From Alphaproteobacteria bacterium (lineage in GTDB: Bacteria; Pseudomonadota; Alphaproteobacteria; Caulobacterales; Parvularculaceae), in the NCBI GenBank assembly GCA_030428745.1, contig JAUIEG010000001.1, forward strand, positions 1-43,814: a stretch of DNA of 43,814 nucleotides. Reading direction: 5' to 3'. Under the pieces are notes generated by a model. That model was not told where the DNA came from, did no database searches, and saw only the letters and a program-made list of their open reading frames with translations. The translations under genes and the position numbers were made by a program. This document shows, in pieces, positions 1 to 30,810 of this stretch; the first letter of the stretch is position 1; each line of letters starts with the position of its first letter.

Positions 1-882
1 GCGAAGTTCAACACAAAAGCCCACCCCATGGACACGCTCAGAACCGCCGTGTCTTTTCTCGGTCAGGAAGATGAAACGACCGAGGATTCCTCACCCGGAG
101 GGCTGATGGAAAAGTCCGTCCGCATGTATGCGCGCATTCCGGAAATCGTCGCGGCGGATTTCCGTTTGCGCAACGGCAACGAGCCAATTGCGCCGACAAA
201 GGACCTCGCCTTTTCCGAGAACTTCTTTCACATGTGCTTCGGCAAGGTTCCGGCGCCGGAAATCATCAAATGTTTCGATATTTCGATGACGCTTTACGCC
301 GAACACTCCTTCAACGCTTCGACCTTTACCGCGCGGACGATCGCTTCGTCGACATCGGACATCTATTCCGCCGTCACCGGCGCCATCGGCTCGCTCAAGG
401 GCCCGCTTCATGGCGGCGCCAATGAAGCGGTGATGCACATGCTGAAAGAGGTGGGCTCGCCCGGCGAAGCGAAAGCCTGGATGCTCGACGCGCTGGCGAC
501 GAAGAAAAAGATCATGGGCTTCGGTCACCGGGTTTACCGCTCCGGCGACAGCCGCGTGCCCACCATGACCGACGCTTACAAGAAAATGGTCGATGTCATC
601 GGCAGTGATGAAGCAAAAAACTATTGGGAGATGAGCCGCATTCTCGACGAGACCATGGTGGCGGAGAAGGGGATCTATCCCAATCTCGATTTCCCGGCGG
701 GCCCGGCCTATTATCTGATGGGCTTCGAAATCCCGATGTTCACGCCGATCTTCGTCATAAGCCGCATCACGGGCTGGACCGCGCATGTCATAGAGCAGTT
801 AGCCAACAACAAGCTCATAAGGCCACTCTCAAATTATGTAGGCAAAGGTGAACGCCAGGCGCTCCCGCTGTTAAAGCGATAG
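1..882 (+). CDS. Citrate synthase / 2-methylcitrate synthase, C-terminal part (5' end truncated by window)
   Basis: Frame is open from base 1 (AKFNTKAHPMDTLRTAVS...). Conserved citrate synthase motifs GPLHGGANEAV, GFGHRVYR and the C-terminal ITGWTAHVIEQ are present. Confidence 0.93.
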   Translation, partial: AKFNTKAHPMDTLRTAVSFLGQEDETTEDSSPGGLMEKSVRMYARIPEIVAADFRLRNGNEPIAPTKDLAFSENFFHMCFGKVPAPEIIKCFDISMTLYAEHSFNASTFTARTIASSTSDIYSAVTGAIGSLKGPLHGGANEAVMHMLKEVGSPGEAKAWMLDALATKKKIMGFGHRVYRSGDSRVPTMTDAYKKMVDVIGSDEAKNYWEMSRILDETMVAEKGIYPNLDFPAGPAYYLMGFEIPMFTPIFVISRITGWTAHVIEQLANNKLIRPLSNYVGKGERQALPLLKR

Positions 883-1024
883 CCATTGTGTGGTCCCGGT
901 AGATGGTTTCTCAAATGATCGTTTGCAAGAAAATGCCCTCGCATAAGTTGGCGAACGCAATGGCGCCGATGCCGTTGTCACGGCTGACTTGACGCAAGCG
1001 TGTTCAAGAAAGGCGAGCAAAGCA

Positions 1025-2230
1025 ATGAATGAAAATCACGATGTTTTTGTTGTGGAAGCGACGCGAACGCCAATCGGCCGATTTGGAGGGACATTGAAGA
1101 ATACGCCATTGCGCATGCTTGGCGAGACAGTTGTCAAATCCCTGTTTGACCGTGCGCGTATCGACCCAGCAAGCGTGCAGTCCATCGCTGTGGGCAACGT
1201 CCTTAGAACAGAAGCAAGTGACGCCTATATTTCTCGTATAATTGGGGCAAGCGCAGGTATGGCGGCGGAGTCGCAAGCTGTGACGTTAAACAGATTATGC
1301 GGTTCCGGCCTGGAAGCGGTTCTTTACGTCGCAAATCAAATTCATCTTGGTGAAATCGGTATTGGTGTCGCCGCGGGCGCAGAATCCATGAGCCGTGCGA
1401 CGTATTCGAGCGCCGCGCCGCGTTTCGGAATGAAGATGGGTGCGCTTGCTTTTGAAGACGATATGTTGACCGCGCTTACGGATCCTTTCGGCGCCGGCCA
1501 TATGGGCGTTACCGCAGAAAACGTAGCGAAAAAGTACGGCGTAAGCCGCGAAGCCCAGGACGCATTTGCGTTGGAGAGCCACAAAAGGGCCATTCAGGCG
1601 ATTAGCGAAGGGCGGTTTCGGGAGCAGATCACGCCGGTAGAGGTTGCTGCCGGAAAAACCGTGACCTTATTTGAAGCTGATGAGCATCCGCGCGCAGACG
1701 TCTCTCTAGAAGATCTTTCATCCTTAAAGCCGGCCTTTGTGAGGGATGGCGGCGTTGTCACTGCTGGTAACGCGTCTGGTCTGAATGACGGCGCCGGGGC
1801 GCTGCTGTTGGCCTCAGGCGACTATGTTTGCTCGAACAATCTCAAGTCCATTGCGCGTCTTGTCGCTTATGCGCGCTGCGGAGTTGATCCGTCTACAATG
1901 GGTGAAGGCCCGATACCAGCTGTTCGCCTCGCCCTCAAAAGAGCGAATTTGTCTGTTGAGGATCTCGATGTCATCGAATCCAATGAGGCTTTCGCGGCGC
2001 AGGCTATCGCCGTTGCGCAGATGCTCGGTTTGCCCGAGGCGAAAACCAATCCAAATGGCGGCGCTATCGCACTAGGCCACCCAATCGGCGCCACTGGCGC
2101 CATCCTTACCACAAAATGTTTGTTTGAGCTCAGGCGAGTCGGGGGGCGCTTTGGTCTCGTCACATTGTGTATCGGCGGCGGGCAGGGAATTGCAGCGATT
2201 TTCCAGAACGTAACAGGAGCGGCGGCATGA
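1025..2230 (+). CDS. Acetyl-CoA acetyltransferase / thiolase family protein
   Basis: Starts VVEATRTPIGRFGG; NRLCGSGLEAV active-site Cys region; NPNGGAIALGHPIGATGA and CIGGGQGIA motifs. The ATG at 1025 is preferred over the track start at 989. Confidence 0.93.
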   Translation: MNENHDVFVVEATRTPIGRFGGTLKNTPLRMLGETVVKSLFDRARIDPASVQSIAVGNVLRTEASDAYISRIIGASAGMAAESQAVTLNRLCGSGLEAVLYVANQIHLGEIGIGVAAGAESMSRATYSSAAPRFGMKMGALAFEDDMLTALTDPFGAGHMGVTAENVAKKYGVSREAQDAFALESHKRAIQAISEGRFREQITPVEVAAGKTVTLFEADEHPRADVSLEDLSSLKPAFVRDGGVVTAGNASGLNDGAGALLLASGDYVCSNNLKSIARLVAYARCGVDPSTMGEGPIPAVRLALKRANLSVEDLDVIESNEAFAAQAIAVAQMLGLPEAKTNPNGGAIALGHPIGATGAILTTKCLFELRRVGGRFGLVTLCIGGGQGIAAIFQNVTGAAA

Positions 2231-2309
2231 GGAATTTTTACTGCCAATGCGACCTCGGTAGCCGTTACGTGAAAGGTGCAGCGGCGTGCAGACATATGAG
2301 GCATGAGAA

Positions 2310-3530
2310 ATGAAAGAGCGCGCGCTAATTATTGGTGCGGGACAAGCGGGACTGCAATGCGCGGCGTCGTTGCGGCAGTCGGCATATGACGGCGATATTG
2401 TAATGATCGGCGCTGAAGACCACCTCCCTTACCAGCGTCCACCATTATCGAAAGCTTTTTTAAAAGGGGAGCTTGCTACGGAGCGGCTCTATCTGCGTCC
2501 TCAAGCTTTTTATGAAAAGCAGCGAATCGAATTGCGGCTTGGCGAGCCCATTCGCTCGATTGATCGGCGCACCCAGCGCGTGGCGACTGACCGGGACAAT
2601 CAGTTGGCGTATGACAAGCTGTTGATCGCGACTGGAGCCCCTCCGAGACGGCTTTTGGCGCCGGGATCTGATTTGCGGGGCATATACTATCTACGCACGC
2701 TGAACGATTCTAACGAATTGCGCGCGATTTTGACGACGCCCGGGCGGGTGGTGATCATTGGCGCCGGTTATATCGGTCTTGAGGTGGCGGCCGTTGCTCG
2801 CGCCTCTGGACGTGATGTGATGGTGGTGGAATTGGCGGAACGGGTCTTGGCGCGTGTGGCGAGCCCGCCTATTTCCGCGTTTTATCAGAAGCTTCACGAA
2901 GATGCAGGCGTCAAATTACGCCTTGGCGCCAAGTTTGAGCGTTTCCTCGGTGACAATGGAGCGGTTGCCGGTGTCGAGCTATCGGATGGCGAGGTCATTG
3001 ACGCGACGGCAATCGTCGTGGGCATCGGCGCGGAGCCAGCTAGCGCGTTGGCCGTCGAAGCGGGGCTTGATGTTGCCGGCGGCATCGTCGTTGATGATCA
3101 CGCACGCACATCTGATGAGAGCATTTGGGCCGCCGGCGACTGCACTATTTTCCCCTCGGCTCGCTACGAACGATCGATGCGGCTTGAATCCGTGCCCAAC
3201 GCCATGGAGCAGGCGAAAGTCGCAGCAGTGAATATGGCGGGCGGTGATGAAGCATATGATCCATTGCCGTGGTTCTGGTCTGATCAATATGATGCAAAGC
3301 TGCAGACGGTTGGGCTTAGTGCTGGCTATGACGCGTATGTTGTTCGGAAAAATCCTGCCTCGCACTCTCTTGCGGTTTGGTATTTCAAGGACAAGATCTT
3401 GTTAGCGGTCGACGCTGTCAATGACGCGGTCTCATTCACGGTTGGGAAGAAATTGATTCTTCAGAACGCCGCGCCAGATCAGAGTCTTATTGCGGACCCC
3501 AATACTGATCTGAAGGCGCTGTGCGGCTAG
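2310..3530 (+). CDS. NAD(P)/FAD-dependent oxidoreductase, ferredoxin (rubredoxin/rhodocoxin) reductase type
   Basis: Two Rossmann motifs (IIGAGQAGLQCA; VVIIGAGYIGLEVA), IWAAGDC FAD motif, and a C-terminal region typical of ferredoxin reductases. Confidence 0.92.
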   Translation: MKERALIIGAGQAGLQCAASLRQSAYDGDIVMIGAEDHLPYQRPPLSKAFLKGELATERLYLRPQAFYEKQRIELRLGEPIRSIDRRTQRVATDRDNQLAYDKLLIATGAPPRRLLAPGSDLRGIYYLRTLNDSNELRAILTTPGRVVIIGAGYIGLEVAAVARASGRDVMVVELAERVLARVASPPISAFYQKLHEDAGVKLRLGAKFERFLGDNGAVAGVELSDGEVIDATAIVVGIGAEPASALAVEAGLDVAGGIVVDDHARTSDESIWAAGDCTIFPSARYERSMRLESVPNAMEQAKVAAVNMAGGDEAYDPLPWFWSDQYDAKLQTVGLSAGYDAYVVRKNPASHSLAVWYFKDKILLAVDAVNDAVSFTVGKKLILQNAAPDQSLIADPNTDLKALCG

Positions 3531-3742
3531 GTTTTGAAAACGAAAAAGGAAATCGCTCCTGCGTTAGCTGATCTATATGCCGAAGACAGAAAAAGACGCC
3601 TGATCCCGCTACAGCGATGATGATTGTTTGGTCTGCAGGGCTCGGATTATTAAAATAGACAACTCCTGACTTTTCAGTGGGCCGCGACAAGGTCTTCGAG
3701 TTGAAAGAAAAGATGAAGAAAGTTAGGGAGGGTCACGACAAC

Positions 3743-4318
3743 ATGGAAAATAGAAAAGAGGCGAACACGGGCGATCGCCGGCAGCAGTTGTTAGACGCGG
3801 CTGAGCGATGCTTTCTCAGGAGCGGTTTTCACGGTGCGCGTGTAGCTCAAATCGCTAAGGAGGCGAAAATGAGCCCCGGCCATATCTATCACTATTTCCA
3901 AAGCAAGGAGCAGATAGTTTCGGCCTTGATCCAGCAACATGTCGAAAAAAAACAGGCTGAGCTCAAAGCGATGGTGGGTATGGGCAGCGATCCCGTTGAA
4001 TCCCTAATCGAAGTCCTCACGGGACGGGCCTCGGAAAAGATGGAGCCATTCTGGTCAACCCTTATGCTGGAAATTGTAGCAGAAAGCACGCGTAGTCCCG
4101 AAGTCGCCGGAAGACTGCGCCAGCTTGCCGAAGACGGTCGCGAAATGTTAAGCGATATGCTTTCGGATGATGTAAGGGTAAATGACTTGAACGAGCGGCT
4201 TGAACTGCTGTTGGCGCTTGCTCAAGGGCTCGGCATGCGTAGTTTGGTTAGCAGCGATTGCAGCAGCGACAAAATACGTCCTCTGGTCAGAGAAATCGTG
4301 TTGACTCTGTTTAAATAA
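3743..4318 (+). CDS. TetR/AcrR family transcriptional regulator
   Basis: N-terminal HTH RRQQLLDAAERCFLRSGFHGARVAQIAKEAKMSPGHIYHYFQSKEQI. ATG at 3743 follows a GGGAGG Shine-Dalgarno-like stretch. Confidence 0.9.
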   Translation: MENRKEANTGDRRQQLLDAAERCFLRSGFHGARVAQIAKEAKMSPGHIYHYFQSKEQIVSALIQQHVEKKQAELKAMVGMGSDPVESLIEVLTGRASEKMEPFWSTLMLEIVAESTRSPEVAGRLRQLAEDGREMLSDMLSDDVRVNDLNERLELLLALAQGLGMRSLVSSDCSSDKIRPLVREIVLTLFK

Positions 4319-4524
4319 AGTTTTTGTTTTGCTGGTGGGGATCCGCCTCCTTTCTTAAAGGTGCTGGAGTAATCCAGCTGAGTCCATTCAGCTTAGTATG
4401 GCCTTTTCCCTTAAACTGCTGACATCTGTTTTCTATTGCATATTCATGCGCTGCTATGAATTGACATACACACGGACTGACCGACTCTGGCCGGACTTGC
4501 GATATGGCTTGCTAACTCGCTACT

Positions 4525-4690
4525 TTATAAAGCGTGCTGTGGCCTTCGCCGCAGCCGCTCCAGCTCTGGCATCTTTTTGATGATCGGCTCGATAGTCCGA
4601 GCCGGGAACCCCAGAGCCTAGTAGATAGCATCGCCTGCCCACATCGCCTTCGCGATCCTCACCGGCGGCGTCAATACGTCGCTAAACGGT
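4525..4690 (-). pseudogene. Probable remnant of a coding sequence interrupted by an in-frame stop
   Basis: Minus-strand reading: PFSDVLTPPVRIAKAMWAGDAIY*ALGFPARTIEPIIKKMPELERLRRRPQHAL*. It looks protein-like but has an in-frame TAG. Family not recognised. Confidence 0.3.
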
Positions 4691-4726
4691 AGGTAGACCT
4701 TACTCCATTACGATCACACGCGATCA

Positions 4727-5173
4727 TCAGACGCCTCTTGAAATCATTGGTTCAGCGCCAGGATTTTCCACAAGTGCGATGGCGCGCCCAGACGCAATCA
4801 AGACTGCACTTTTGTTTTCGATCCGAGCCTCGGTTGTTATGCTGCACTCATCAATAAAAACAACTTTACCGCTAACAAGCAGATCTTGTATGTCGCTAAT
4901 GCCGTGCTGGTCCGTTTTCAAATTTATTGTTCTACAAATGCCGCCAGATTGTATTACGGCAGCGCAAGAGCATGCAATTTCGACAAGGGCCGCAATCAGT
5001 CCTGCGGCGCCAGGCTCGGCCATATCTGTCGAAAGGTGTGCGGAAAAAGCAATTCCGTCTCGTGACGTTTCCAAAGGCTTTAATCGAAGACCTCGCGCGA
5101 ACGGCGATTTTTCAAGATGCGCTCCTAATTCGATAATATTCCTATTGGTCAATTTTCTCCGCCCTATATTCAA
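4727..5173 (-). CDS. PaaI-like hotdog-fold thioesterase family protein
   Basis: 148 aa; pattern of small hotdog thioesterases (AEPGAAGLIAALVEIACSCAAV; INLKTD; SVLIASGRAIAL-like strand). Confidence 0.6.
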   Translation of the reverse strand: MNIGRRKLTNRNIIELGAHLEKSPFARGLRLKPLETSRDGIAFSAHLSTDMAEPGAAGLIAALVEIACSCAAVIQSGGICRTINLKTDQHGISDIQDLLVSGKVVFIDECSITTEARIENKSAVLIASGRAIALVENPGAEPMISRGV

Positions 5174-6194
5174 CCCACGAATTCACGTTCACAGCATCCA
5201 TCGCGGAGCGAAAATCCTTCAAACGCCAAGAACCGCCTAATACTCCGCCTGATTTGCAGAAACTCGCGTTCTCCATACCGACCATACCGAAACAAGGCTA
5301 CAGCATTGTGCAAAAAGCTTGGCCGCTTTGATTTTCTCAGTGATCCGTCGCCGGTGACGTACCGATGTCTCACATAATGCCGCAAACTACGACAAACTAA
5401 ATCCGCGACGCCTTTTTCATTTAGTAAATGGATTTTGCGACAGAATTTATCTCGGCCCATTTCCGCATTAGTTCGATCTATAATCCCGGTTCCGCCACTC
5501 GTTAAATTGAGCAGCCCAGGAACATATTGTGTAGCGCTCCGAAAGTACAAGCGCCACACCATTCCCGGTTTATGCTCTCCCCAATACTGCTCGGCGCATT
5601 AGAATTGCAAATGCAAGCGCATATCTGGATGCTACGATAGCTAGTATGTTACAATCACGAGCGAGCTGAAATCGCGGTCGCGATGAGGCATCATCGGCGT
5701 AGCAGTTCCTTGAACGCAACGGCTTTACGAACCCCGTCCCTAAACCTTCGAAAACCCAAAAAAGCGGGGTTTGCGGCGGAGCCTCGTCCGGCATCCGACC
5801 GCCGTCGCAGAACAATGCCTCCCCACCTACCTCGACACTGTAAATCCGACCTTTTAGGCACTTGTTGATTATGCCCTCAGGCTTTGTTCACAGCTGTACA
5901 GCATTATCCGAAGTTGGATTTAGCTGTTTGCCCTGTACTTACCTTGAAACTAGAAGCCGGCTGCATTCATGCGGGCGAGGTCACATGGCAAAAAAATGGA
6001 AGCCGCGAAACGGGGAGCATACCGAGCAACTCTCGCTGGTTCCGCTACGAATAACCTTAGCCCAGTCTTAGCCGATACTGTGGTTCTACATTTTCGGTTC
6101 GTAAAATTTTGGTACCCCCTCGGTACCCTGATAAAAACCAACATGGGAAGGCCCGAGGTGCAAAGCTCTAACTATCGATTTTTATTGGGGAATC

Positions 6195-6239
6195 TGGCGC
6201 GAGTGACGGGACTTGAACCCGCGACCTCCGGCGTGACAG
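6195..6239 (-). tRNA. 3' half of a tRNA-Asp(GTC) gene only (anticodon loop to CCA); presumed att site
   Basis: Reverse complement CTGTCACGCCGGAGGTCGCGGGTTCAAGTCCCGTCACTCGCGCCA. Contains the anticodon loop CTGTCAC, the 3' anticodon arm, the T-arm GGTTCAAGTCC and the encoded CCA. The 5' half is absent (the next bases, TGCAGAG, do not fit). Confidence 0.8.
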
Positions 6240-6367: not shown

Positions 6368-6407
6368 CTTGCTTACCATACGCTTACCCAGCGACTGGGT
6401 AAGCAAG
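6368..6407. repeat. Nested inverted/direct repeat upstream of integrase
   Basis: CTTGCTTACC ATAC GCTTACCCA GCGAC TGGGTAAGCAAG. A perfect 9-bp hairpin (6382-6390/6396-6404), and the upstream CTTGCTTACC can pair with the same right arm. Confidence 0.75.
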
Positions 6408-6434: not shown

Positions 6435-7811
6435 ATGCCCCGGATCACCAAGAGCCTGATCGCCTCCTCCCAAACAAAAGCTGAGCGCTACTATGTCTGG
6501 GACGAAAAACCATGGGGGTTCGGTCTTTCGGTGTTCCCTAGCGGCCGGAAGAGCTTCGTCTTCCAATACCGGACGGCGGAAGGCCGCAGCCGGCGCGCCA
6601 CAATCGGAAAGGTTGAGTCTCTAACGCTGGATCAAGCGCGCCAGCGCGCGCAGGAAATGTCCGAATGCGTCCGCAAGGGCGGCGATCCTCTGGAGGAGAA
6701 GAAAGTCGCACAAGCGGAAATGTCGGTCGGAGACCTTTTCGACGCCTATCTCGCAAGCGAGGCGTTCAAGGAAAAGGCAAAGAGCACGCGCGAGACGGAC
6801 ACAGGCAGAATCGAGAACCACCTGCGCCCCCTGCTCGGCAAGAAGTTCGCCCGCATGCTGACTACGGAGCAGGTGAAGAAAGCGCGCCGGGAAATCATTT
6901 CAGGCAAGACCGCAAGGAATGTGAAAACCGGTTGGCGGGCCCGCTCCATCGTTCGCGGCGGCGAAGGAACCGCGCGGCAGTCCATGCGCATCCTGGCGGC
7001 AATCTATTCTTGGGCCGGAAAGGAAGGGCTGGTCGATAGGAATCCCGCCCGCGATGTAGACAAAGGCGGCGACGGCGAGCGCGATATCGTCATGCGCAAT
7101 GCTGAGGATTACCGGCGTCTGTTCGAAACCCTCGACACGATGGAGCGTGAAAGCCGCGTCAGGCCAGCCGTGGCTGACATATTCCGGCTCATCGCCCTCA
7201 CCGGCGCCCGGCGCAGCGAAATCACCGGACTTCTCTGGAGTGAGATCGACCTGCAGCGCGGCGTCATCATCAAATCCTCCGAGAGGCACAAGACCGGGAA
7301 GAAGACGGCGAAATCACGCATCATCGGGCTGCCTGAACTGGCGCGCGCAATTCTATCGCGCCAGCCAAGCGGCCCACCTGACGGGCCGGTCTTTCCGCCT
7401 ATGCGCAAAGACGCAGCGGGCCGCGTTTATCCAGTCTCCCGAAAAGGCGAGCCCGGATGCATCAATGTCACCAAAGACTGGCGAGCCGTGCGGACCGAAG
7501 CGAAACTCCCTGAAGGAATCGGACTTCATGGTTTGCGCCATTCCCTCGCAACTCATATGGCGATGCAGGGCGCTCAGGCCGCCGAGATCATGGCGGCGCT
7601 CGGTCACCGCAAACTCTCAACGTCGCAACGTTACATCCACTATGCAGAGGACGCTCGCGCAGCACTAGCGGAACGAGCCGTCGCTTTTATCCGCGACGCG
7701 ATGCCAACCGAGGGCCGTCAGCACAAAACTGAAGTGAAAGAAAGACCCGATGATGAACCTGTAGAGTATGAGGATGAACGCCATGCCATCTTACATTTCG
7801 CCGTTCGATGA
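6435..7811 (+). CDS. Tyrosine-type site-specific integrase (P4-like)
   Basis: N-terminal arm-binding domain (YYVWDEKPWGFGLSVFPSGRKSFVFQYR) and catalytic residues in LTGARRSEI, HGLRHSLATHM and LGHRKLSTSQRYIHY. Confidence 0.95.
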   Translation: MPRITKSLIASSQTKAERYYVWDEKPWGFGLSVFPSGRKSFVFQYRTAEGRSRRATIGKVESLTLDQARQRAQEMSECVRKGGDPLEEKKVAQAEMSVGDLFDAYLASEAFKEKAKSTRETDTGRIENHLRPLLGKKFARMLTTEQVKKARREIISGKTARNVKTGWRARSIVRGGEGTARQSMRILAAIYSWAGKEGLVDRNPARDVDKGGDGERDIVMRNAEDYRRLFETLDTMERESRVRPAVADIFRLIALTGARRSEITGLLWSEIDLQRGVIIKSSERHKTGKKTAKSRIIGLPELARAILSRQPSGPPDGPVFPPMRKDAAGRVYPVSRKGEPGCINVTKDWRAVRTEAKLPEGIGLHGLRHSLATHMAMQGAQAAEIMAALGHRKLSTSQRYIHYAEDARAALAERAVAFIRDAMPTEGRQHKTEVKERPDDEPVEYEDERHAILHFAVR

Positions 7812-9729: not shown

Positions 9730-10293
9730 TCAAGGATGAATTTTGGCTCGCTTCAACGAAAGTGGCAGAAAACAATCTATCTCTTCTGCGGTAAAAGTCA
9801 GGTCTTCCTTGTTTTTCAATCTATCCTGCGCTTGCTGATACGCTTTGCCATTGGTCTGGGGCGCTGCTTGATAAATTGCCGCAAGCACGGTCTGCAACTC
9901 ATCGCGCCTTTCTATGGCAGCTTCTCTCTCCAGCAATGGAAGGTCCGTCAATAGCGACAAATAGCATTCGCGAACATTCCAAAGTTTTGATGCAGCGTCA
10001 CGATGCTTCTGTGTAAGCTCGCCCAAATCAAAATTCTTCAGATAGGTGGATACAAAAAGCGTCGAGAACGACAGCAGTACGGTCGCAATTTCAATCCATC
10101 GCGTATCGGTGAAAAAAACACCAACCGCGCCGGTGCTCGCGAGACCTGTGAGCGCTATTTGTGCGACTTTGTATCTATTGAGTTTAGTGGCGTAATTTTC
10201 CGCCATTCGCTCATGAGTTTTGTGAGAATAGACAACGCGACCAAAACACTCTCGTATTTGGTCCTCTAAAGAGACATCGACCTCATCCGACAT
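9730..10293 (-). CDS. SLATT-domain two-TM effector protein (CBASS-like)
   Basis: 187 aa; N-terminal IRECFGRVVYSHKTHERMAE, two hydrophobic helices (VAQIALTGLASTGAVGVFF; WIEIATVLLSFSTLFVSTYL), then a helical cytosolic region. Its start overlaps the CD-NTase stop. Confidence 0.8.
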   Translation of the reverse strand: MSDEVDVSLEDQIRECFGRVVYSHKTHERMAENYATKLNRYKVAQIALTGLASTGAVGVFFTDTRWIEIATVLLSFSTLFVSTYLKNFDLGELTQKHRDAASKLWNVRECYLSLLTDLPLLEREAAIERRDELQTVLAAIYQAAPQTNGKAYQQAQDRLKNKEDLTFTAEEIDCFLPLSLKRAKIHP

Positions 10294-11614
10294 TTTTCAA
10301 GACTTCTTCTTTGTTCGCATTGATGGGAACCAGAATGCTATCACGAGCTACAACAACGCCATTAAGAACGGCGTAGCACTCAACAAAGTGGTCACCTTTG
10401 AAATCTGATTCTTCACGCTTCTCCCAGCCCCCTGTGTCACGTACAATTTGTCCCCTGATCATATTACGCCGCTTGGCCTCGGGGCCACGATTCAGCACCT
10501 TCCAATAAATCTCCGTCCCCTCTGGCAAATCGGAGCTGTCCGTGATTTCAAACCGTAATTTCTTATCTGGTCGCAAAAACGAGTATTTTCTGACCAACTC
10601 TCGCAGCATTTCAGCGCGAAAACCTTTTTGGGTAACCTCGCAATTTATTCGAAGGTGATACCGCACATCAATCGGAAAACGATCTTCGACAAACTCTTCT
10701 GTGTTCTGATATTGCGCTTTGCTGTGCGAAGAGCTTGCTTCTTCATTAGCACTGACCTCAGGGGCCGGATAACCATTCCCAAATACGTCTCGCCATTTTT
10801 GGCGCTCATTTCTTTGGCCGCTGGCATCTATTGCTTTTTGGCACAGATCGCGCGCCTTCTTTGCTTTTCTTTCAAATCGCTTCTTTACGCGTACGCGCTG
10901 TCGGCTACCAAGCGCTGCGTATTCTGATTGTTTTGGCTGATCTGCGAGATATTGAAAGAAATCCCGACACATTTCATCGTAGTACAAGTGGCTTTTGTTG
11001 TCGTACTCAGTTGTGGATTCAAGGAAGTTATACGCTAGCGTGTCGATCAGTAACCCACCCATCGCCACACCATGCTTGTTTTTCCACGCTCGGGCCATTT
11101 TGCATAGACGACGAAGGTTGTTGTTCTTGCGCGCATCACTTTCGCGTATCTCATCAAGCTCGGCCTGTGGTTTCGTAATCTTCCACGATCCATCGTTCTT
11201 AGTGTCTGGGTACTTATAGCTACCATCTTCTTGTTTGAACGCCGGCATAACTTCGATGTGAAAGTCTCTATAAAGTACGCGCACCACAAGCCGATCTACT
11301 TTTACAACGGTTGAAGGATATCGTGCTTTAATGGCGTCTTTAGTGTCACGAAGCAGCTCGGACTGTTTGCCGTCCTTATAACTGTCCCACTTATTCGCGG
11401 GCATTATGTAAATCATATCTAGATCAGACACGCCCTTGATCGCCGTTCCGCGACCATAAGAACCTACTTGCAGGCTGTTTGCGGTCTTTGATTCTGTGTC
11501 TCGAAATTTTTTGTTCAGCGCTGCAGTGACTTCGCCATATCGGAGCGAAATGGTGGCTGCGTTGTCGATTTTTATATTGTCGAGAAAGGTCTTGAAGTCT
11601 TCTGCAATGCCCAT
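10283..11614 (-). CDS. CD-NTase (SMODS nucleotidyltransferase) with C-terminal AGS-C sensor domain
   Basis: GSYGRGTAIKGVSDLDMIYIM (GS plus DxD), third acidic position in RDFHIEVMPAF. C-terminal FVEDRFPIDVRYHLRINCEV...IYWKVLNRGPEAKRRNMIRGQI...FKGDHFVECYAVLNGVVVARD is typical of AGS-C. SD GAGAGG upstream. Confidence 0.9.
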   Translation of the reverse strand: MGIAEDFKTFLDNIKIDNAATISLRYGEVTAALNKKFRDTESKTANSLQVGSYGRGTAIKGVSDLDMIYIMPANKWDSYKDGKQSELLRDTKDAIKARYPSTVVKVDRLVVRVLYRDFHIEVMPAFKQEDGSYKYPDTKNDGSWKITKPQAELDEIRESDARKNNNLRRLCKMARAWKNKHGVAMGGLLIDTLAYNFLESTTEYDNKSHLYYDEMCRDFFQYLADQPKQSEYAALGSRQRVRVKKRFERKAKKARDLCQKAIDASGQRNERQKWRDVFGNGYPAPEVSANEEASSSHSKAQYQNTEEFVEDRFPIDVRYHLRINCEVTQKGFRAEMLRELVRKYSFLRPDKKLRFEITDSSDLPEGTEIYWKVLNRGPEAKRRNMIRGQIVRDTGGWEKREESDFKGDHFVECYAVLNGVVVARDSILVPINANKEEVLKNVG

Positions 11615-12349: not shown

Positions 12350-12678
12350 CCGGCGGTAAAACCCGGCCGCTGACCATCCGCTTGCCCGCTCGAGCCGTCG
12401 AACGGCTTCATGAACACGCAAACATCGTCAAAGGCCGTCCAACCGCCATTGCGCGCGAGCTGATCCTCGCGGGCCTTATCAAGGGGCATTCTCGCGAACA
12501 GGCGGAACGCATGCTGACCATCGAGCGGCGCCTCGCGTCTATCGGGCAGGAAATGCAGGCCGTTTCCCGGAAAACAGAAGAGCAATCGGCCTCTGTGGAG
12601 AGGCTTCTCGCCATGTTCGAGGCCCTGCTTCAGGTACTTGCGGGCGAGCATTCAAAGGACAATTCCCGTCATGAGTAA
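12346..12678 (+). CDS. Small ribbon-helix-helix-like mobilisation accessory protein
   Basis: GTG start overlapping the previous stop (GTGA). KTRPLTIRLPARAVERLHEHANIVKGRPTAIARELILAGL plus a coiled coil. Confidence 0.6.
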   Translation: MTGGKTRPLTIRLPARAVERLHEHANIVKGRPTAIARELILAGLIKGHSREQAERMLTIERRLASIGQEMQAVSRKTEEQSASVERLLAMFEALLQVLAGEHSKDNSRHE

Positions 12679-14461
12679 TGCAAAGAAAATCCTGTTTCTC
12701 GCCGCACTTGTCAGTTTCGCGGCGGCGCTCGCCGTCTTCGAGACGGGCTTCAAACGATGGACGCCTGTCGGCCGGGCGCCGGAAGGCGGCCTCGCCAGAT
12801 ACGATCCGAACTTTGTTGCGCAGTGCGCAAACTATCGGACGCGAAGCTTCTTCTTCGACGACAACGCCGCCCACGTCTGGAGCGTTTGCCGTGAAAATTT
12901 CGCTGATACCCGCTCGCTGTCCGCCTTCAACGTCCGCTATTGGTCATTGCTATCGTTTTCAGGGAGCGGGATCGCCGCGCTCTTCGCCTTCGCGCTTGCC
13001 GCGCGCATGGAGCGGCCAAAGGCAAAAGTCGTCCGCGGGCGGCGCTATCGGACCGGCGGCGAGGCCCGCAGCCAGCTTCGAAGCGCCTGCGCCGCCGAAC
13101 GCCGGCGCTCCGGAAAGGGGCTCGAATTCCCGCCGGGAATCCATATCAGCGCCGAGCGCGAGACTCGCCATTGGCTGATCTGGGGCAGCGTCGGCGCAGG
13201 GAAAACCCAGACCATGCTGCACTTGATGCACGCCGCCATCGGGCGCGGCGACAAGGTGCTGGTTCTCGACACCAAGGGAGACATGACCGCGACCATGCCG
13301 ACCGAACCGGCGCTGGTCGCACCCCAGGACGAACGCTCTTTCGTGTGGAACGTCGCCGCGGACTGCCGCACCAAACAGGACGCAAGGGAGCTGGCGGCGC
13401 GGTTTATTCCGGCGAGCAATGACCCGATCTGGTCGGACGCCGCGCGCGAAATCTTCGTCGCCTGCATCGCGCAATTGCAGGCCGAAAAGCCCGAACAATG
13501 GAGCTGGGCCGATCTCCGGGACATCGTGCTTCAGGATGCGGCGGCGCTTTTCAAGACCGCGCAAAGCTATCATCCAGAAGCCATGCGCGTGCTGAAAGAC
13601 CCGGCCAGCAAGACCGCGCAAAGCGTGCTGACGACGTTTCAGGCGCATCTGAATGTCGTGAGCGCGCTCGCTGAAAGCTGGGGCGGGCATGAGAATCCGC
13701 CGCGATTTTCCATCAATGAGTGGCTGCATATGGATCATGCGAAGCCGGTGATCCTACAGCGCGACGCCAAATATCCGGAACTCTCGAACGCATGGATCAG
13801 CGGTCTACTGGGGCTTCTTTCCTCCGCCGTCGGCAGCCCGTCGCTCTCAGAATCGCGCACGCGGCGGGTCTGGCTTTTCCTCGACGAGTTCCCGCAACTG
13901 CCGCGCATGAGCGACTTCTCGACCTTCCTCGATATGGGCCGGTCGAAGGGCGTGATCGTGGTTCTGGGGGCGCAGGACATCGCCCAGATCCGCAGTGTTT
14001 ACGGCCGCGAACGCGCCGATTCCTGGATCGGCATGATCGGCACGCAGGTCATTACGCGGCTCAATTTCGGGCGGGGGGCGGAGGAAGCAAGCCTGATGAT
14101 CGGCGATCAGGACGTCGAATATAAAGTACGCAGCACCGGAACCAGCGGCGGCCATTCGACCGTCACGGAAAGCATTCACCGCGAAACCCGCCGGGTCGTG
14201 ACCGCCGCAGACCTTTCGAACCGTCTCGGCCCCCGGCGGAAAAGCATCCGGATCGCGCTGCTCGGTCCCGGAAAAGACGCCTATGAACTCGATCTTCCGT
14301 ACGTCCGCCAGCAGCAATTGCGGCCCGCATCGCAGCCGGCGCAGTGGACTTATCGGGCGACGGAGCGCGCCAGATACGGTAAGCCCGGCGTAAAAACCGA
14401 GCCCGAAAGCGCCATTTCGAAAGCCGCCGCCGACTTCATCCGGAGCGACAGGGACGACTGA
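12671..14461 (+). CDS. Type IV coupling protein (TraD/VirD4-like)
   Basis: N-terminal TM segments, Walker A IWGSVGAGKTQTMLHLM, Walker B VWLFLDEFPQLPRM. ATG at 12671 overlaps the upstream gene. Confidence 0.9.
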   Translation: MSNAKKILFLAALVSFAAALAVFETGFKRWTPVGRAPEGGLARYDPNFVAQCANYRTRSFFFDDNAAHVWSVCRENFADTRSLSAFNVRYWSLLSFSGSGIAALFAFALAARMERPKAKVVRGRRYRTGGEARSQLRSACAAERRRSGKGLEFPPGIHISAERETRHWLIWGSVGAGKTQTMLHLMHAAIGRGDKVLVLDTKGDMTATMPTEPALVAPQDERSFVWNVAADCRTKQDARELAARFIPASNDPIWSDAAREIFVACIAQLQAEKPEQWSWADLRDIVLQDAAALFKTAQSYHPEAMRVLKDPASKTAQSVLTTFQAHLNVVSALAESWGGHENPPRFSINEWLHMDHAKPVILQRDAKYPELSNAWISGLLGLLSSAVGSPSLSESRTRRVWLFLDEFPQLPRMSDFSTFLDMGRSKGVIVVLGAQDIAQIRSVYGRERADSWIGMIGTQVITRLNFGRGAEEASLMIGDQDVEYKVRSTGTSGGHSTVTESIHRETRRVVTAADLSNRLGPRRKSIRIALLGPGKDAYELDLPYVRQQQLRPASQPAQWTYRATERARYGKPGVKTEPESAISKAAADFIRSDRDD

Positions 14462-15594
14462 TGGTCGCCTCGATTTCGGTCCGGAAAAGCGTCGCGGCGG
14501 CGGCGGCCTATTACCAGCATATGGGCAAGGATGACTATTACGCCCGCGAGGGCGAGGCCCCCGGTCGCTGGGAGGGGCGCGCCGCTGAACGTCTTTCTCT
14601 GGAAGGTTCGATCTCGAAATCCGACTTCGAGGCGGCCCTCGAAGGGCTCGATCCGAGGACCGGAGAGCGGCTCATTCTTGCAAACGGGATCGCCCATACG
14701 GCGGGCTGGGACATGACCTTCAGCGCCCCGAAATCCGCTTCGGTCCTATGGGCTCTCTCTAACGAAAACCAACGCCACACTATCGAAGCCGCACACCATA
14801 AAGCCGTCAATACAGCCCTCAAGCAACTCGAAAACGACCATGCCTGGGCCCGCCGCGGACGCCGCGGCGCCATCAAGGAAAGGACCGCCGGGCTGCTGGT
14901 CGCGGCCTTCGACCATCACACCAGCCGCGACCTCGATCCCCAGCTCCACACCCATGCCTTCATCTTCAATCTGGCGCCCCGCCATGACGGAAGCTGGGGC
15001 GCAATTGTCGGCCGCGAGCTTTATCTGGCGCAGAAGGAAGCGGGCCGCATGTACCGGGCGGAATTCGCAAACGGGCTCGAAAGATCGGGCGTCGGGATCA
15101 CAAGAGAGGCCGAGGGTTTTCGCGTGACGGCGATCCCAATGGACGTTGAGCGCGCCTTCTCAAAACGCCGCGAGGCTATCGAAAACGCCGCCGGAACTTT
15201 TGGTTATTCGAGCGCGAAAGGCATGGAAATGGCGGCGCTCCGGACACGAAAACCGAAACAGGAAATGAACCGCGAGGCGCTTCTTTCCATGTGGCGAGAG
15301 GAAGCGAAAACCCTCGGATTCAATATACAAAAACAGCAAAACCTGACGCCTAAACTGGAGATTATTCAGGCGCGCGGGCATGAAAATTCGCTGGAAATAC
15401 GCTCGGATTTGCATGCTAAAACGACGCAAGCGCAACGCGAAAAACACGCTGAAAGACGGCCTGAAAAGACCGTTCCTACGCCCAAAATCGCCCGTCTTTT
15501 GCAGCGTCTCGCGGCGACTTTAGACGGCCCTTCGCGCATGTCCGGCATCCGTTTTAGTCTGCGCCAAAAGGAGAAAAATCTCGAACGGGAGTAG
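14461..15594 (+). CDS. MobF (TrwC/TraI)-family relaxase, relaxase domain only
   Basis: N-terminal YYQHMGKDDYYAREGEAPGRW, WDMTFSAPKSASVLWAL, and the metal-binding His triad region FDHHTSRDLDPQLHTHAFIFN. 377 aa with no helicase domain. Confidence 0.88.
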   Translation: MVASISVRKSVAAAAAYYQHMGKDDYYAREGEAPGRWEGRAAERLSLEGSISKSDFEAALEGLDPRTGERLILANGIAHTAGWDMTFSAPKSASVLWALSNENQRHTIEAAHHKAVNTALKQLENDHAWARRGRRGAIKERTAGLLVAAFDHHTSRDLDPQLHTHAFIFNLAPRHDGSWGAIVGRELYLAQKEAGRMYRAEFANGLERSGVGITREAEGFRVTAIPMDVERAFSKRREAIENAAGTFGYSSAKGMEMAALRTRKPKQEMNREALLSMWREEAKTLGFNIQKQQNLTPKLEIIQARGHENSLEIRSDLHAKTTQAQREKHAERRPEKTVPTPKIARLLQRLAATLDGPSRMSGIRFSLRQKEKNLERE

Positions 15595-18250: not shown

Positions 18251-19945
18251 CTACTCCGCAAAAAGCGGCGCGATTTTCTCGGCGCGTTTGACTGCGCCGG
18301 GTTTTCCGGCGTCGCCATAGGACAGCGCCGGAAACTGCAGCCAGCGCGGGCGCCAGTTCGGCGTTTTTTCGCGCCCGTTCCGGCCGTCGAGGCAGTCGCG
18401 AATGATCGCTTTCTGGGCTTTCGCAGCAGCGTCGCGGTTCGCCTTTGCAACGCTGTCGCCCGCAATGTCGGCGAGCATGGCGTTGGTCATGTTTTTGTCG
18501 CGCAAAAGCTCGAAAAACGCGTCATCCGGCGTCATCCAGTCGGCGATATCGATAGGCACAAAGCGCGCGAGACAGTCCACCGCCTCATGACCGGCTGCGA
18601 TGATTTCCGCCGTGACGAAAGTCAGAATACGGGCGATGTCTGCGTCCGAAAGCGTCATCATTTTCGCGAAAATCGACGCCAGATGCCAGCCGTCTTCATT
18701 GCCGCCGGTGATAGAGGGCGGCTCGTCAAGATCGAGCAATTTGCCGATTTCGGCGCGCTCTTTCTCAAATGCTTTTTGCCCTTTCGACGCCGCAACGCTC
18801 GCCGCCGTTTCCTCTTTCCGCGTCGCCTGTCTGTCGGGCTGGCAGCGAATATTCGGCGCGCCTGAGATCAGATGCGCCGCCAGCAAACGCAGCGCAATGC
18901 GAGAGTGTTTCAAGAGCACGGCGCGCGCGGCGGCGTGGCGGTGAAGATCTACATAATTCTCCAAGGGCGCTGAGCATTCGGGCCGTTCGGCGCGCGCTTT
19001 TTCTTTCGCCGCGTGGGTTTTCCGCCGGGGCGCGTAGCCCTTGATGAACGCCACTTCGCCGGAATGGCGCACTTCGACGAACACTTCCCCGCCTTGCTTT
19101 TTGGCGAGTTGATCGTACTCCCATGAATGGAAAAACTCTCCGCGCGGCAGGACCGTCACCTTGGTCCAACCGCTTGAAATCAGCTTCTCGCGCTGGGCTT
19201 CAATCGCCGCTTCCTGACGCGCCCAGAACTTCTCGGCGTCAGCGAAAACCGAACGCTCGCCGAACAAATCCTCGAAGATGTCGCCGTCATAATCGTCAAG
19301 AGAAAACAGCGCGGCGCCGGTTTCGATCTCGCCGCCGCCCAAGAGCCAGCGCTTTAACGCAGACCCGCGCGGCGCGCGCATGTCCGCCGATTTGAACATT
19401 TCGAACCATTCGCGCTGTTTCGATTCGCTGGCGAGGGTGAGCGCGGTGATGCTGGCCCCATCGATGTCGTCTTGGGCGTAGGCCTTGCGGATGCCGGGAA
19501 TGAGGCTCGCCAAGGCGAGGCGGCGCTTCACGGTGAGTTCCGTCACCCCGAATATGCGGGCGATTTCTTCAACGCTCTTGCCTTTGTCGTTCAATTTTTT
19601 GAACGCCTCGAATTCCTGCATTTCGTCGGGTTCGAGCCGCGCGGTGTTTTCAAGAATCGAGGCCTCCACGGCGGCGGCGTCATCGCCTTCGGCAAGCACC
19701 CGGCAGGGCAGATCACGCGCCTCGCCGGTCTCGATTGCGATTGCTTTCGAGGCCAGAAATCGCCGCCGTCCCGCGACGATTTCGAAATGGTTTTCTTTGC
19801 CGTTTGGACGCACGAGCAGCGGCACCAATACGCCGCGTTCGCGGATCGACGGCAATATATCGTCGAGATATGGCTTTTTGCGCGACGCCCTCATATTGAG
19901 CGCCGAAACCTCCAATCGGTCGAGCGGGATTGTTTGCAGTTCCAT
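18251..19945 (-). CDS. ParB/RepB/Spo0J-family protein
   Basis: ParB/Srx N-terminal domain (IPLDRLEVSALNMRAS...IVAGRRRFLASKA), ENTARLEPDEMQEFEAFKKL and HTH KSVEEIARIFGVTELTVKRRLALA. Confidence 0.88.
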   Translation of the reverse strand: MELQTIPLDRLEVSALNMRASRKKPYLDDILPSIRERGVLVPLLVRPNGKENHFEIVAGRRRFLASKAIAIETGEARDLPCRVLAEGDDAAAVEASILENTARLEPDEMQEFEAFKKLNDKGKSVEEIARIFGVTELTVKRRLALASLIPGIRKAYAQDDIDGASITALTLASESKQREWFEMFKSADMRAPRGSALKRWLLGGGEIETGAALFSLDDYDGDIFEDLFGERSVFADAEKFWARQEAAIEAQREKLISSGWTKVTVLPRGEFFHSWEYDQLAKKQGGEVFVEVRHSGEVAFIKGYAPRRKTHAAKEKARAERPECSAPLENYVDLHRHAAARAVLLKHSRIALRLLAAHLISGAPNIRCQPDRQATRKEETAASVAASKGQKAFEKERAEIGKLLDLDEPPSITGGNEDGWHLASIFAKMMTLSDADIARILTFVTAEIIAAGHEAVDCLARFVPIDIADWMTPDDAFFELLRDKNMTNAMLADIAGDSVAKANRDAAAKAQKAIIRDCLDGRNGREKTPNWRPRWLQFPALSYGDAGKPGAVKRAEKIAPLFAE

Positions 19946-19948
19946 CCT

Positions 19949-20212
19949 TCATTCTCCTGTTGCTGATGGTTTGGATTGAGACGGCGCCATTTGGTCGAGA
20001 CGGCGCAATTCATCGACAAGGTCGATCTGGCGGCGGGATTCCAAGTCAAAGAGTCCCATGTCGCAGCTTTTTTGCGCGGCGCGCGGCGCCATGGGCGCCG
20101 CCGCCAATACGCTAAGCCGGTCGCGCAAAGTGATCGGCGCGACGCCGCGCATTAGCGTTTGCGACCCCGCGTCCGTTTCCTCGGCTTCCGGCTTTTCGCT
20201 ATGCGCGCTCAT
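19949..20212 (-). CDS. Hypothetical protein between ardC- and parB-like genes
   Basis: 87 aa. Its start overlaps the ArdC stop by 4 nt, consistent with an operon. Confidence 0.55.
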   Translation of the reverse strand: MSAHSEKPEAEETDAGSQTLMRGVAPITLRDRLSVLAAAPMAPRAAQKSCDMGLFDLESRRQIDLVDELRRLDQMAPSQSKPSATGE

Positions 20213-21234
20213 GCTGCGCGCTTCATCGCAGAGGCGTCAGTGTCCGGCGCCGGATTTTCAAAGGCCAGAATAAAATCCGCCGCTTTGGAGGCGAGCGACG
20301 CCGCGTTGAAAATCGCGCGGTTGTCCTCTTTCAGAACCTCAAGCCATGCGCCCAGATAATCCGCATGGCGCACAGTCGGCGCGATGGAAAGCGAGGCGCA
20401 GACGAAGGCCGAGCTAAGTTCGGCGACCAGTTCCTCGCGGGCGTAAGCGTGGCTTCCGTAGCGGCCCTTGAATTCGCGACCCAAACGCGAGGCGTGGCCG
20501 GTCCAGTGTCCAAGCTCGTGAAAGCAAGTGCGGTAATAATTGATCTGTTCGTAAAAAGCGGGTTGCGGCGGGACGCGGATGAAATCCTGTGACGGCACAT
20601 AAAACGCCTTGTCGCCGCCGATCCGGAAATCGGCGCCGGTCGCATTGATGAGGTTTTCCGCGCGCGGGATCGCATCGCATTCCGGCAGGGGCTTGGCGTC
20701 CGCCGTCAGTTCCGGCGGCAGGCCTTCGCATTGCGCGGCGTTAAAGACGGTGTAGCGTTTGAGGAATGGCACGAAAGCGGCGTCGCCGCCCTCTTTTTCG
20801 ACTCTAGCCTGCTCGTCTTTCGGGATAAATTTGTCGGCGTAAACGACCATTGAGCCGCGCTCGCCCTTCATCACCGAACCGCCCAAGGTTTTCGCCTGCA
20901 GATAAGTCAGCCATGTCTGGCCGGAAAAGCCGTTTTCGATGGCGGCGCCCCAGAGAAGAAGAATGTTGATCCCGGAATAGGCGCGGCCTGTCTGTGCATT
21001 CTTCGGCAAGCCTGCGGCAATCGTCGCGGCTTCACCTCTTGCGGCCCAAGGCTGCGCCCATGGAAAGCGTCCGGCTTCCAGTTCCTTCACGATCTTCGTT
21101 GTGACTTCGGTATAAAGATCGGCGCCCGGCTTTCTCTTGCCGGAACGCCCGCGCGGCTTCGCGCCCGTGTTCGTCGCGTTCTTTCGCTGGACGGCGCGGC
21201 TGGGCGCGTCGGTTGCGGTTTCAAGTGATGTCAT
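20209..21234 (-). CDS. ArdC-like antirestriction / zincin metallopeptidase domain protein
   Basis: DLYTEVTTKIVKELEAGRFPWAQPW (N-terminal ssDNA-binding domain), GINILLLWGA, and HELGHWTGHASRL (HExxH zincin). ATG at 21234 preferred. Confidence 0.9.
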   Translation of the reverse strand: MTSLETATDAPSRAVQRKNATNTGAKPRGRSGKRKPGADLYTEVTTKIVKELEAGRFPWAQPWAARGEAATIAAGLPKNAQTGRAYSGINILLLWGAAIENGFSGQTWLTYLQAKTLGGSVMKGERGSMVVYADKFIPKDEQARVEKEGGDAAFVPFLKRYTVFNAAQCEGLPPELTADAKPLPECDAIPRAENLINATGADFRIGGDKAFYVPSQDFIRVPPQPAFYEQINYYRTCFHELGHWTGHASRLGREFKGRYGSHAYAREELVAELSSAFVCASLSIAPTVRHADYLGAWLEVLKEDNRAIFNAASLASKAADFILAFENPAPDTDASAMKRAA

Positions 21235-21583
21235 GGCTGCTCGCTCCTTGCCTTTCCGCCCGCAAATTCCCCCGGGACGGCGGGGGCGGCGGAAACGGGG
21301 CGAGCATGAGCGCCGGGCATCGGAGGCCGGGGCGCAACTGGTTTGGTAGGATGAGAAAAGCAATCGAGACGGATAATGTGCCAAAGCGGTTGCGGCGCGG
21401 CCGCCCGGCGCTATTCGCCCCGTCTTCCGTTCCGCCGCCCCCGCTGTCCCGAGGGGAATGACCAACAAGCCGCGGGGCAAAGCCCTGCGCCCTTATCCCG
21501 CGCGCAGCGCGGGCCTGCGGCAGGGATCGTCACCGGCACGGCGAAGACGACGAATTCACCTTTTGAATTTGTCGGCTTCGGGC

Positions 21584-21951: not shown

Positions 21952-22797
21952 ATGCCCCTCAACGCCGAACAGCGCACGCGACTGCGGGAAGACGCGCCTT
22001 TCGGGCTGTTCGTGACGAAGGAATGGCTGTCGGGCAAGGGCTACGCCCGGCACAGCATCGATAATCTGGTCAAATCCGGTCAGCTGATCTCGCTACGGCC
22101 GGGGATCTATATCCGGCCCGATACACAGCTTGGCTGGGAGGGCGTTGTCTGTTCCCTGCAGCGCATGGGCGGCGACCTTTCGGTCGGCGGGCTGACGGCG
22201 CTCGAACTTCATGGCCTTGGCCACTATCTCGTCCTGTCGGGAAAGCGGCGCGTCGTCCTTTTCGGCGCCGATCCCCTGCCCGCCTGGATCAATCATCTCG
22301 TCAAGGACGTCACGTTCGAGAAACGCAGTGAGGCGCGTCTCTTTGCGGCGAGCCCATACGCCGAGAATGATGATGATCGCGAAGACGCGCAGGAGCGGCG
22401 CCGGCGCAAAAGAAGCGATCCCGCCATGGCGGGACTCACCACCCTGCAAATCGCGGAGCATTTGCCGCCGCTGTCTTTGTCGACGCCGGAGCGCGCAATC
22501 CTCGAAGTGCTGTTCGACGTGCCCAACCGCGTATCATTCGAACATGCCGATCAGCTCATGCAGGGGCTTGCGACCCTGTCGCCGCGCCGGCTGGAAACCG
22601 TTCTTAACCTATGCGTCAATATCCGGGTGAAACGGCTTTTCTTCTGGCTCGCCGACCGCCATCAATTCCAGTGGCGCGCGTATCTTGATCCGAATGATTT
22701 CGACCTCGGCCGAGGCAATCGCGTGATCGCCAAGCCCGGCCGCCTCGATCCGACTTACGCCATCACTGTCCCTGAGAGTTTCGCAGATGACACTTAA
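21952..22797 (+). CDS. abiEi: AbiEi-family antitoxin (type IV TA)
   Basis: N-terminal wHTH (FVTKEWLSGKGYARHSIDNLVKSGQLISLRPGIYIRPD) and C-terminal AbiEi region; directly coupled to AbiEii. Confidence 0.85.
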   Translation: MPLNAEQRTRLREDAPFGLFVTKEWLSGKGYARHSIDNLVKSGQLISLRPGIYIRPDTQLGWEGVVCSLQRMGGDLSVGGLTALELHGLGHYLVLSGKRRVVLFGADPLPAWINHLVKDVTFEKRSEARLFAASPYAENDDDREDAQERRRRKRSDPAMAGLTTLQIAEHLPPLSLSTPERAILEVLFDVPNRVSFEHADQLMQGLATLSPRRLETVLNLCVNIRVKRLFFWLADRHQFQWRAYLDPNDFDLGRGNRVIAKPGRLDPTYAITVPESFADDT

Positions 22798-23728
22798 GCG
22801 TCAGGCCTTCGAAGAGCAGGTTCGCCTTCTTGTGCGCGTGCTTCCCTATGTAGCGAGAGAGACTGATTTCGCGCTTAAAGGCGGCACGGCGATCAATTTC
22901 TTTCTTCGCGACATGCCGCGCCTGTCGGTTGATATTGATCTTGCTTATCTGCCGCTGGAGCCGAGGGAGACGGCGCTGCCGAAGATCAGTGCGGCGCTTC
23001 TCCGCATCGGCGAACAGCTTGTGGCGAGTTCTCCCGCCATCGCCACCATCGATCCGCCGGCCGTGCGGGAGAACGAGCTGCGGCTCCTCATCAGGGACGG
23101 CCGGACCCAGGTGAAACTTGAACTGTCCCCGGTTCTGCGCGGGACCGTATTCCCGCCGGAAAGGCGGATTATTGCTCCCGCTGTCGAAAGCGCGTTCGGC
23201 TATGTTGAGGTGCAGGTCCTGTCGCATGCGGACCTTTACGCCGGAAAGATTTGCGCCGCGCTCGACCGCCAGCATCCGCGTGACCTGTTCGACATTAAAA
23301 TCCTCTACGAAAACGAAGGGCTCACAGACGATCTGTCCCGCGCCTTCCTCGTCTACGCCGCCTGTTCCAACCGCCCCATTCATGAATTGCTGGCGCCAAA
23401 CGAAAAGGATATCGGCGAGGACTTCGTCCGGGAGTTCGCCGGCATGACTGCCGAACCGATCAATATCGATGCACTTCTATCCGCGCGAATACGGCTAATC
23501 GGCGACATTCAGGCGCGGCTCAATGGAAACGCCGCCGAATTCCTCATGACGCTGCAAGCGGCCGAGCCTGACTTCACGCTCATCGGCTTGCCGCACGCCG
23601 CGGAGCTACCGGCGATTAAATGGAAACTTTTGAACCTCAAAAAATTGATGATCGACAATCCGGACAAGCATCGCGCGCAAAGCGAACTTCTCAACAAACT
23701 GCTGAGCCAATCGAAGATCAATCAGTAA
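22787..23728 (+). CDS. abiEii: AbiEii-family nucleotidyltransferase toxin
   Basis: FALKGGTAINFFLRDMPRLSVDIDLAY (NTase GG...SxDxD motif); CAALDRQHPRDLFDI motif. Start overlaps abiEi by 11 nt. Confidence 0.9.
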   Translation: MTLKRQAFEEQVRLLVRVLPYVARETDFALKGGTAINFFLRDMPRLSVDIDLAYLPLEPRETALPKISAALLRIGEQLVASSPAIATIDPPAVRENELRLLIRDGRTQVKLELSPVLRGTVFPPERRIIAPAVESAFGYVEVQVLSHADLYAGKICAALDRQHPRDLFDIKILYENEGLTDDLSRAFLVYAACSNRPIHELLAPNEKDIGEDFVREFAGMTAEPINIDALLSARIRLIGDIQARLNGNAAEFLMTLQAAEPDFTLIGLPHAAELPAIKWKLLNLKKLMIDNPDKHRAQSELLNKLLSQSKINQ

Positions 23729-25169: not shown

Positions 25170-25182
25170 GATGCGCCTCCTT

Positions 25183-28338: not shown

Positions 28339-28349
28339 GGATCGCGCTC

Positions 28350-30751: not shown

Positions 30752-30810
30752 TGGTCATTGTCCTCTTGGAATCAAAATTACTGATGGGCGCGCGGAACGC
30801 GCGCGATCAG

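Follow-up and report, generated by a model that had tools for sequence, protein, structure and literature searches.

The half tRNA gene in the analyzed stretch of DNA (the window; 43,814 nucleotides, C384:1-43814) is very probably an attachment core within a tandem array, in which at least three islands were accreted in one tRNA-Asp(GTC) gene. The order of the array, as read from a single MAG contig, appears to be element 0 / half 1 / element 1 / half 2 / element 2 / intact tRNA-Asp. The source assembly is a MAG of 3.85 Mb in 834 contigs, and contig C384 stops at position 108578, 41 bp beyond the intact tRNA. The features located in the window are listed in Table 1.

The minus strand of the window at positions 6195-6239 was found to be an exact match to the 3′ half of tRNA-Asp(GTC), reaching from the anticodon loop to the CCA (45-mer CTGTCACGCCGGAGGTCGCGGGTTCAAGTCCCGTCACTCGCGCCA), which confirms what an earlier note on this DNA had stated, including the missing 5′ half. 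The number of matches expected by chance in the window was 0, even when three mismatches were allowed (100 shuffles). Since neither ARAGORN nor Rfam identified an intact tRNA in the window, the fragment represents a true half (half 1). In a search of the whole genome the exact 45-mer was recovered twice more on the minus strand, at C384:86518-86562 as a half only (half 2) and at C384:108461-108505 within an intact tRNA-Asp (C384:108461-108537). All three exact copies are thus located on one contig and one strand, the outermost being the intact tRNA. In addition, near copies were detected on C696 (a half with one mismatch) and on C786 (an intact tRNA-Asp with two mismatches). The earlier note had expected an intact tRNA-Asp beyond position 43814 in matching orientation, which was located as described, and with two further exact copies the outcome of no second copy in the genome did not occur. 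Its assumption of one element up to the intact tRNA is incomplete, because with the additional half at 86518-86562 the region 6195-108537 holds two elements, not one.

Table 1. Features of the window, with positions, strand and supporting evidence.
Feature	Position	Strand	Evidence
Element 0 (another island), right-end portion	1-6194	.	Pfam; no synteny; arm pair 6111-6127
Second citrate synthase, at contig edge	28-882		Pfam
Thiolase	989-2230		Pfam
Ferredoxin-reductase-like	2310-3530		Pfam
TetR regulator	3677-4318		Pfam
GGTACC-N5-GGTACC arm pair, right arm of family II element 0	6111-6127	+	Sole such pair on C384
Attachment core copy 1 (half 1), element 0 / element 1 junction	6195-6239	-	Exact 45-mer, identical copies elsewhere on C384
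Window part of element 1	6240-43814	.	Arm pairs at both element ends; homologous ends in Parvularcula sp. NAT21
GGTAAG-N5-GGTAAG arm pair beside half 1 towards the integrase, at the left end of element 1	6372-6388	-	0.03 expected in window
Inverted GGTAAG arm site (fifth of element 1; third on integrase side), adjoining the pair	6398-6403	+	Layout as in attP of phage P4
Family I P4/IntSXT-type tyrosine integrase, 458 aa, intact	6435-7811	+	Pfam; R...HxxR...H...Y motifs readable
CBASS-like pair, SLATT/2TM effector	9730-10293	-	Pfam, PADLOC
CBASS-like pair, SMODS/AGS-C cyclase	10283-11614	-	Pfam, PADLOC
TrwB/TraD coupling protein, mobilisation module	12638-14461	+	
MobF/TrwC relaxase, mobilisation module	14461-15594	+	
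ParB-like, maintenance	18251-19945	-	
ArdC-like antirestriction, maintenance	20209-21480	-	
AbiEi/AbiEii pair, maintenance	21952-23728	+	
Metal-resistance cargo: cation efflux, two CusA/CzcA RND systems, CusB-CusF fusion, multicopper oxidase	23718-43756	.	

Half 1 is accompanied by paired hexamers on both sides. The GGTACC pair on the left flank lies 67 and 78 nt past the CCA of half 1, and 0.02 such pairs were expected by chance in the window (one mismatch allowed). About ten congeners have this motif at an equal offset next to their cores. The GGTAAG pair on the integrase side lies at −149 in the family I loci of four genomes (the window, NAT21, HKST-UBA11 and Amphiplicatus). On the 108.6-kb C384, GGTAAG pairs were identified only at ~6372, ~86434 (left of half 2) and ~108378 (left of the intact tRNA); they mark element 1 at either end and element 2 at the tRNA. 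The distance of the right-arm pairs to the CCA was 66/67 and 77/78 nt. Upstream of family II integrases, GGTACC was located at about −158 (G004, G008:C38, G010, G019 and G027), and C662 of the same MAG, judged by its upstream sequence, is also of family II with GGTACC.

All 24 arm pairs in 862 kb of loci were found at most 260 bp from a tRNA-Asp core sequence. When 398 genomes of the order were searched, exactly the four with a family I integrase had GGTAAG right arms; the reversed control pattern gave two matches. GGTACC right arms were present in 11 genomes, two of which (G165 and G028) look unrelated. The further exact copies of the 45-mer, the arm sites and the integrase at fixed distances all support the former proposal that the half tRNA is an attachment site.

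Element 1 (C384:6240-86517, 80.3 kb) is bounded by GGTAAG arm pairs. The ORF of its integrase begins 195 bp from half 1, in good agreement with the P4-type integrase noted before at ~200 bp, and contains the domains PF13356 (Arm-DNA-bind_3; 6.8e-17) and PF00589 (Phage_integrase; 1e-19), both above the cut-off. Relatives of this integrase were found in Parvularcula sp. NAT21, Parvularculaceae bacterium HKST-UBA11 and Amphiplicatus metriothermophilus, and in two other genomes integrases of 97% and 81% identity adjoin the same tRNA-Asp half. Going by these names and by the kinship labels of the genomes compared, the source organism would be placed in Parvularculaceae. The homology of the integrase ends between NAT21, HKST-UBA11, Amphiplicatus and the window stops at the core, and the flanks beyond it differ. 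With arm-binding and catalytic domains, direct repeats of the tRNA 3′ end and a P4-like arm layout, element 1 shows the features of P4/IntSXT-type tRNA islands.

Besides the cargo given in Table 1, element 1 carries a copper P-type ATPase and CopD, and the region 24919-30984 shares 89% identity with NAT21 sequence lying downstream of the intact tRNA-Asp there. An integrase, a MobF relaxase and a coupling protein are present, and among the proteins scanned, which cover part of the ORFs, no transfer-channel genes were found; element 1 is a candidate IME. The combination of relaxase and coupling protein without detected channel genes suggests that element 1 would be mobilised by a helper. The CBASS-like two-gene pair (9730-11614), which gives element 1 a phage-defence cargo besides copper resistance, is situated close to its integrase end.

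Judged from its sequence, the DNA left of 6195 is the right end of another island and not core chromosome, since the GGTACC pair found 67 nt past half 1 is the label of the other integrase lineage. The ~1.9 kb between the TetR gene and half 1 contain no recognisable genes. With DNA homology, synteny of the left-flank genes was absent in all 28 congeners, and across 60 relatives only scattered paralogues matched; a search for a conserved chromosomal neighbour via the far flank in NAT21 likewise yielded nothing but scattered paralogues or cargo. The ancestral neighbour downstream of tRNA-Asp, cytochrome c together with nuoABCD (seen via G004, G007 and G021), is absent beside half 1, and nuoB was not found in the MAG. 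Of the orientation proposed earlier, the element on the right could be retained, but the chromosome on the left is not supported, given the GGTACC arm pair, the lack of synteny and the missing cytochrome c/nuo genes. Element 0 is seen at its right end only, and not at its integrase end. At 5880-5945, ~250-313 nt left of half 1, a stretch with a degenerate GGTAAG pair shows 79% identity to the right arm of family I in NAT21; it may be the relic of an older attachment site within element 0.

Element 2 (C384:86563-108460, 22 kb) lies between half 2 and the intact tRNA-Asp. Its cargo comprises a phytase, TonB receptors, IolA-, IolB-, IolC- and IolD-like proteins, IolG-like dehydrogenases, an SSF transporter and an RpiR regulator. 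Phytase and TonB receptors together with a set for myo-inositol catabolism suggest phytate use. The inositol region was found in 3 of 62 family genomes, the source genome counted. The element is bordered by a core copy at either end and has its GGTAAG right arm beside the intact tRNA; no tyrosine integrase was detected in it by a genome-wide PF00589 search in which stops were read through, and no arm site was found at its left end at half 2, even with three mismatches. Element 2 may therefore be regarded as a putative CIME-like, cis-mobilisable, decayed family I element. We infer the decayed family I origin from the right arm only, because the left end has no arm site.

The tRNA-Asp gene is an integration hotspot in the relatives as well. 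The congener G007 carries no island at tRNA-Asp, the tRNA being separated from nuoB by 1.15 kb, so that the comparison with island-free relatives proposed before yielded an unoccupied site. The same gap, measured within the genus on a single contig and always in the same orientation, was 7.2 kb in G021 and 14 kb in G016, and it reached 73 kb (G003), 111 kb (G002) and 165 kb (G004) in occupied congeners. In G103, which belongs to another genus, the intact tRNA is followed by an insert of 48.6 kb and then by a half that lies 0.7 kb from nuoB, with a GGTACT arm pair at both ends. The 45-mer is mostly single per family genome, with two or three copies in several. In NAT21 and HKST-UBA11 a GGTACC right arm is located on the far side of the family I half, and in NAT21 and Amphiplicatus the intact tRNA-Asp directly adjoins a GGTAAG right arm.

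Remnants were also observed. In Amphiplicatus a broken family I integrase remnant was found beside the tRNA-Asp half (G113:C14), and C16 carries the intact tRNA-Asp with the GGTAAG right arm. In NAT21 (G008:C77:1480-1582) a GGTAAG right arm follows a truncated core remnant of ~20 nt; this attachment site was apparently damaged by a deletion.

Tyrosine integrases grip the arm sites with their arm-binding domain and exchange strands in the core; with every integration the tRNA is made whole again and the previous core comes to lie further out (PMC11963761 for arm sites, PMC5704250 for accretion and CIMEs). Accordingly to this scheme, each arriving circle would have brought a tRNA 3′ half as attP core. 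The integrase would swap strands in the core, the incoming 3′ half would rebuild the intact tRNA, and the old 3′ half would be left as the outer scar. The simplest order of arrival would be element 0 (family II, GGTACC), then element 1 (family I, GGTAAG, with its own integrase) and finally element 2 (GGTAAG right arm). The family I integrase would be expected to excise element 1 alone by recombination of half 1 with half 2 (80.3 kb), or the composite of elements 1 and 2 by recombination of half 1 with the intact tRNA (102.3 kb). By excision of the composite the phytase/inositol cargo could travel in cis, which leads to the prediction that the integrase-less phytase/myo-inositol island can travel with the copper-resistance element. 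A common core with unlike arms would explain how elements of unrelated integrases are stacked in one gene.

The co-orientation of half 1 and the intact tRNA, the integrase at the left end and the housekeeping-like metabolic enzymes encoded in the left flank are consistent with a single island between 6195 and the intact tRNA at 108537 and core chromosome to the left, as the earlier note had assumed. However, this region is divided at ~86434-86562 by a third core, which has a GGTAAG right arm of its own, and the left flank bears the right-arm pair of the other lineage at the canonical offset and has neither congener synteny nor the ancestral cytochrome c/nuo genes, so that a single island is very unlikely. 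Element 1 could also extend over 102 kb and include element 2, with half 2 and its arm as the relic of a smaller element that landed inside. This would agree with the missing integrase and left arms of element 2 and with the arm hexamer at the intact tRNA, which is identical to that of element 1. Against it, half 2 has a complete core and an arm pair at the canonical +67, which gives element 1 two proper ends, and the right end in NAT21 matches the arm of half 2 (113 bp, 76%) and not that of the intact tRNA; the larger element is considered improbable, though still a reading of some weight. For a degenerate or chance tRNA fragment with no tie to integration no points in favour were found, and the exact match with zero expected, the two extra exact copies, and the arm sites and integrase at fixed distances, a linkage repeated in other genomes, make it practically negligible.

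An assembly artefact would imply that C384 is a chimera, joined at repeats of 45-60 bp from different islands or strains. The MAG consists of 834 contigs, and strain mixture or misbinning is present, because C786, C696 and C662 in the bin carry other tRNA-Asp attachment pieces. In addition, C384 ends 41 bp past the tRNA, and its last 118 bp are common with C786 at 98%. On the other hand, the contig broke at this longer shared stretch and passed through the shorter cores as if these had been resolved, and the junction type of half 1 (GGTACC arm / core / family I integrase) occurs independently in NAT21 and HKST-UBA11. A chimera is therefore held to be unlikely, and the tandem array is preferred. 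The intact tRNA-Asp of C786 (G000:C786:7780-7856) has two compensatory T-stem changes (G-to-A/C-to-T), upstream chromosome and an identical upstream flank, and is probably a variant of the same locus, the 3′ half of which was supplied by another island. C696 is 99.9% identical to G022:C7 over 9.4 kb, with ~77% identity between the conserved flanks of both genomes, which could be due to a recent transfer or a misbinned contig. On C662 a family II integrase begins just beyond the expected core position. These three contigs could represent further variants of the tRNA-Asp locus, or foreign contigs.

The site-specific accretion of islands with a CIME-like member is of a known kind, and the tRNA-Asp array is a well-resolved new case. 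The arrangement is similar to attP/int of phage P4, where the integrase also belongs to the Arm-DNA-bind_3 (DUF4102) type and the core is a tRNA 3′ end (tRNA-Leu). The annotated P4 attP likewise consists of an inverted site plus pair, core and pair, with the inverted site on the integrase side. It differs in the tRNA and in the arm sites (tRNA-Leu with GGGGGCA at 12 bp, compared to tRNA-Asp with GGTAAG/GGTACC at 11 bp), and P4 is a phage satellite, whereas the cargo found here is plasmid-like.

ICE/IME-CIME accretion was described for Streptococcus ICESt1/CIME and for a tRNA-Lys composite in S. agalactiae (review PMC5704250). As in these cases, elements of unlike integrases are present in tandem at one tRNA 3′ end, together with an integrase-less member with attachment sites, but the present array is alphaproteobacterial, its two integrase lineages are distinguished by arm hexamers, and excision of its composite is a prediction. 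For IntS of ICEMlSymR7A, an alphaproteobacterial tRNA-targeting integrase as well, five P/arm-type sites with the consensus TGKTGGTATC were described in attP (PMC11963761). GGTA is common to the arm sites of both, but in that symbiosis ICE the sites end in TC compared to AG, CC or CT here, and an RDF was described (PMC11963761), whereas none was identified in this study. From a single half tRNA an integration hotspot was resolved into the DNA predicted to be mobile, the integrase expected to move it and the units, and the arm pairs corrected the boundary call, the left side being another island.

The paired hexamers may constitute a lineage-specific recognition code of DUF4102-type integrases, a proposal for which we see about even chances. 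The code would comprise GGTAAG, GGTACC, GGTACT, GGTATC, GGTAGC and further hexamers, with a constant spacing of 11 bp within this taxonomic order, and would tell the owner element, the moving integrase and orphan islands mobilisable in cis or trans; elements with the same core and unlike arms would stack and yet excise independently. If it holds generally, tandem islands could be split and each paired with its integrase from sequence only. In the literature, which was covered in part, neither a study of Parvularcula islands nor an earlier statement of a GGTAnn arm code was found. The claim of an 11-bp spacing is made for this order only, because upstream of E. coli CP4-57 intA, used as an outside control, an exact hexamer pair at 11 bp is lacking, and in P4 the spacing is 12 bp. 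At 34 of 37 P4-like integrase loci of the order, an exact hexamer repeat with 11-bp spacing was found no more than 150 bp upstream of the gene; these are not 34 independent events since the loci are mutually related. Nearly all other spacings were found at 0-3 of the 37 loci, and a spacing of 10 bp at seven; windows placed within the integrase genes as a control gave at most four loci with a hexamer repeat. The sequence of the hexamer varied by integrase lineage.
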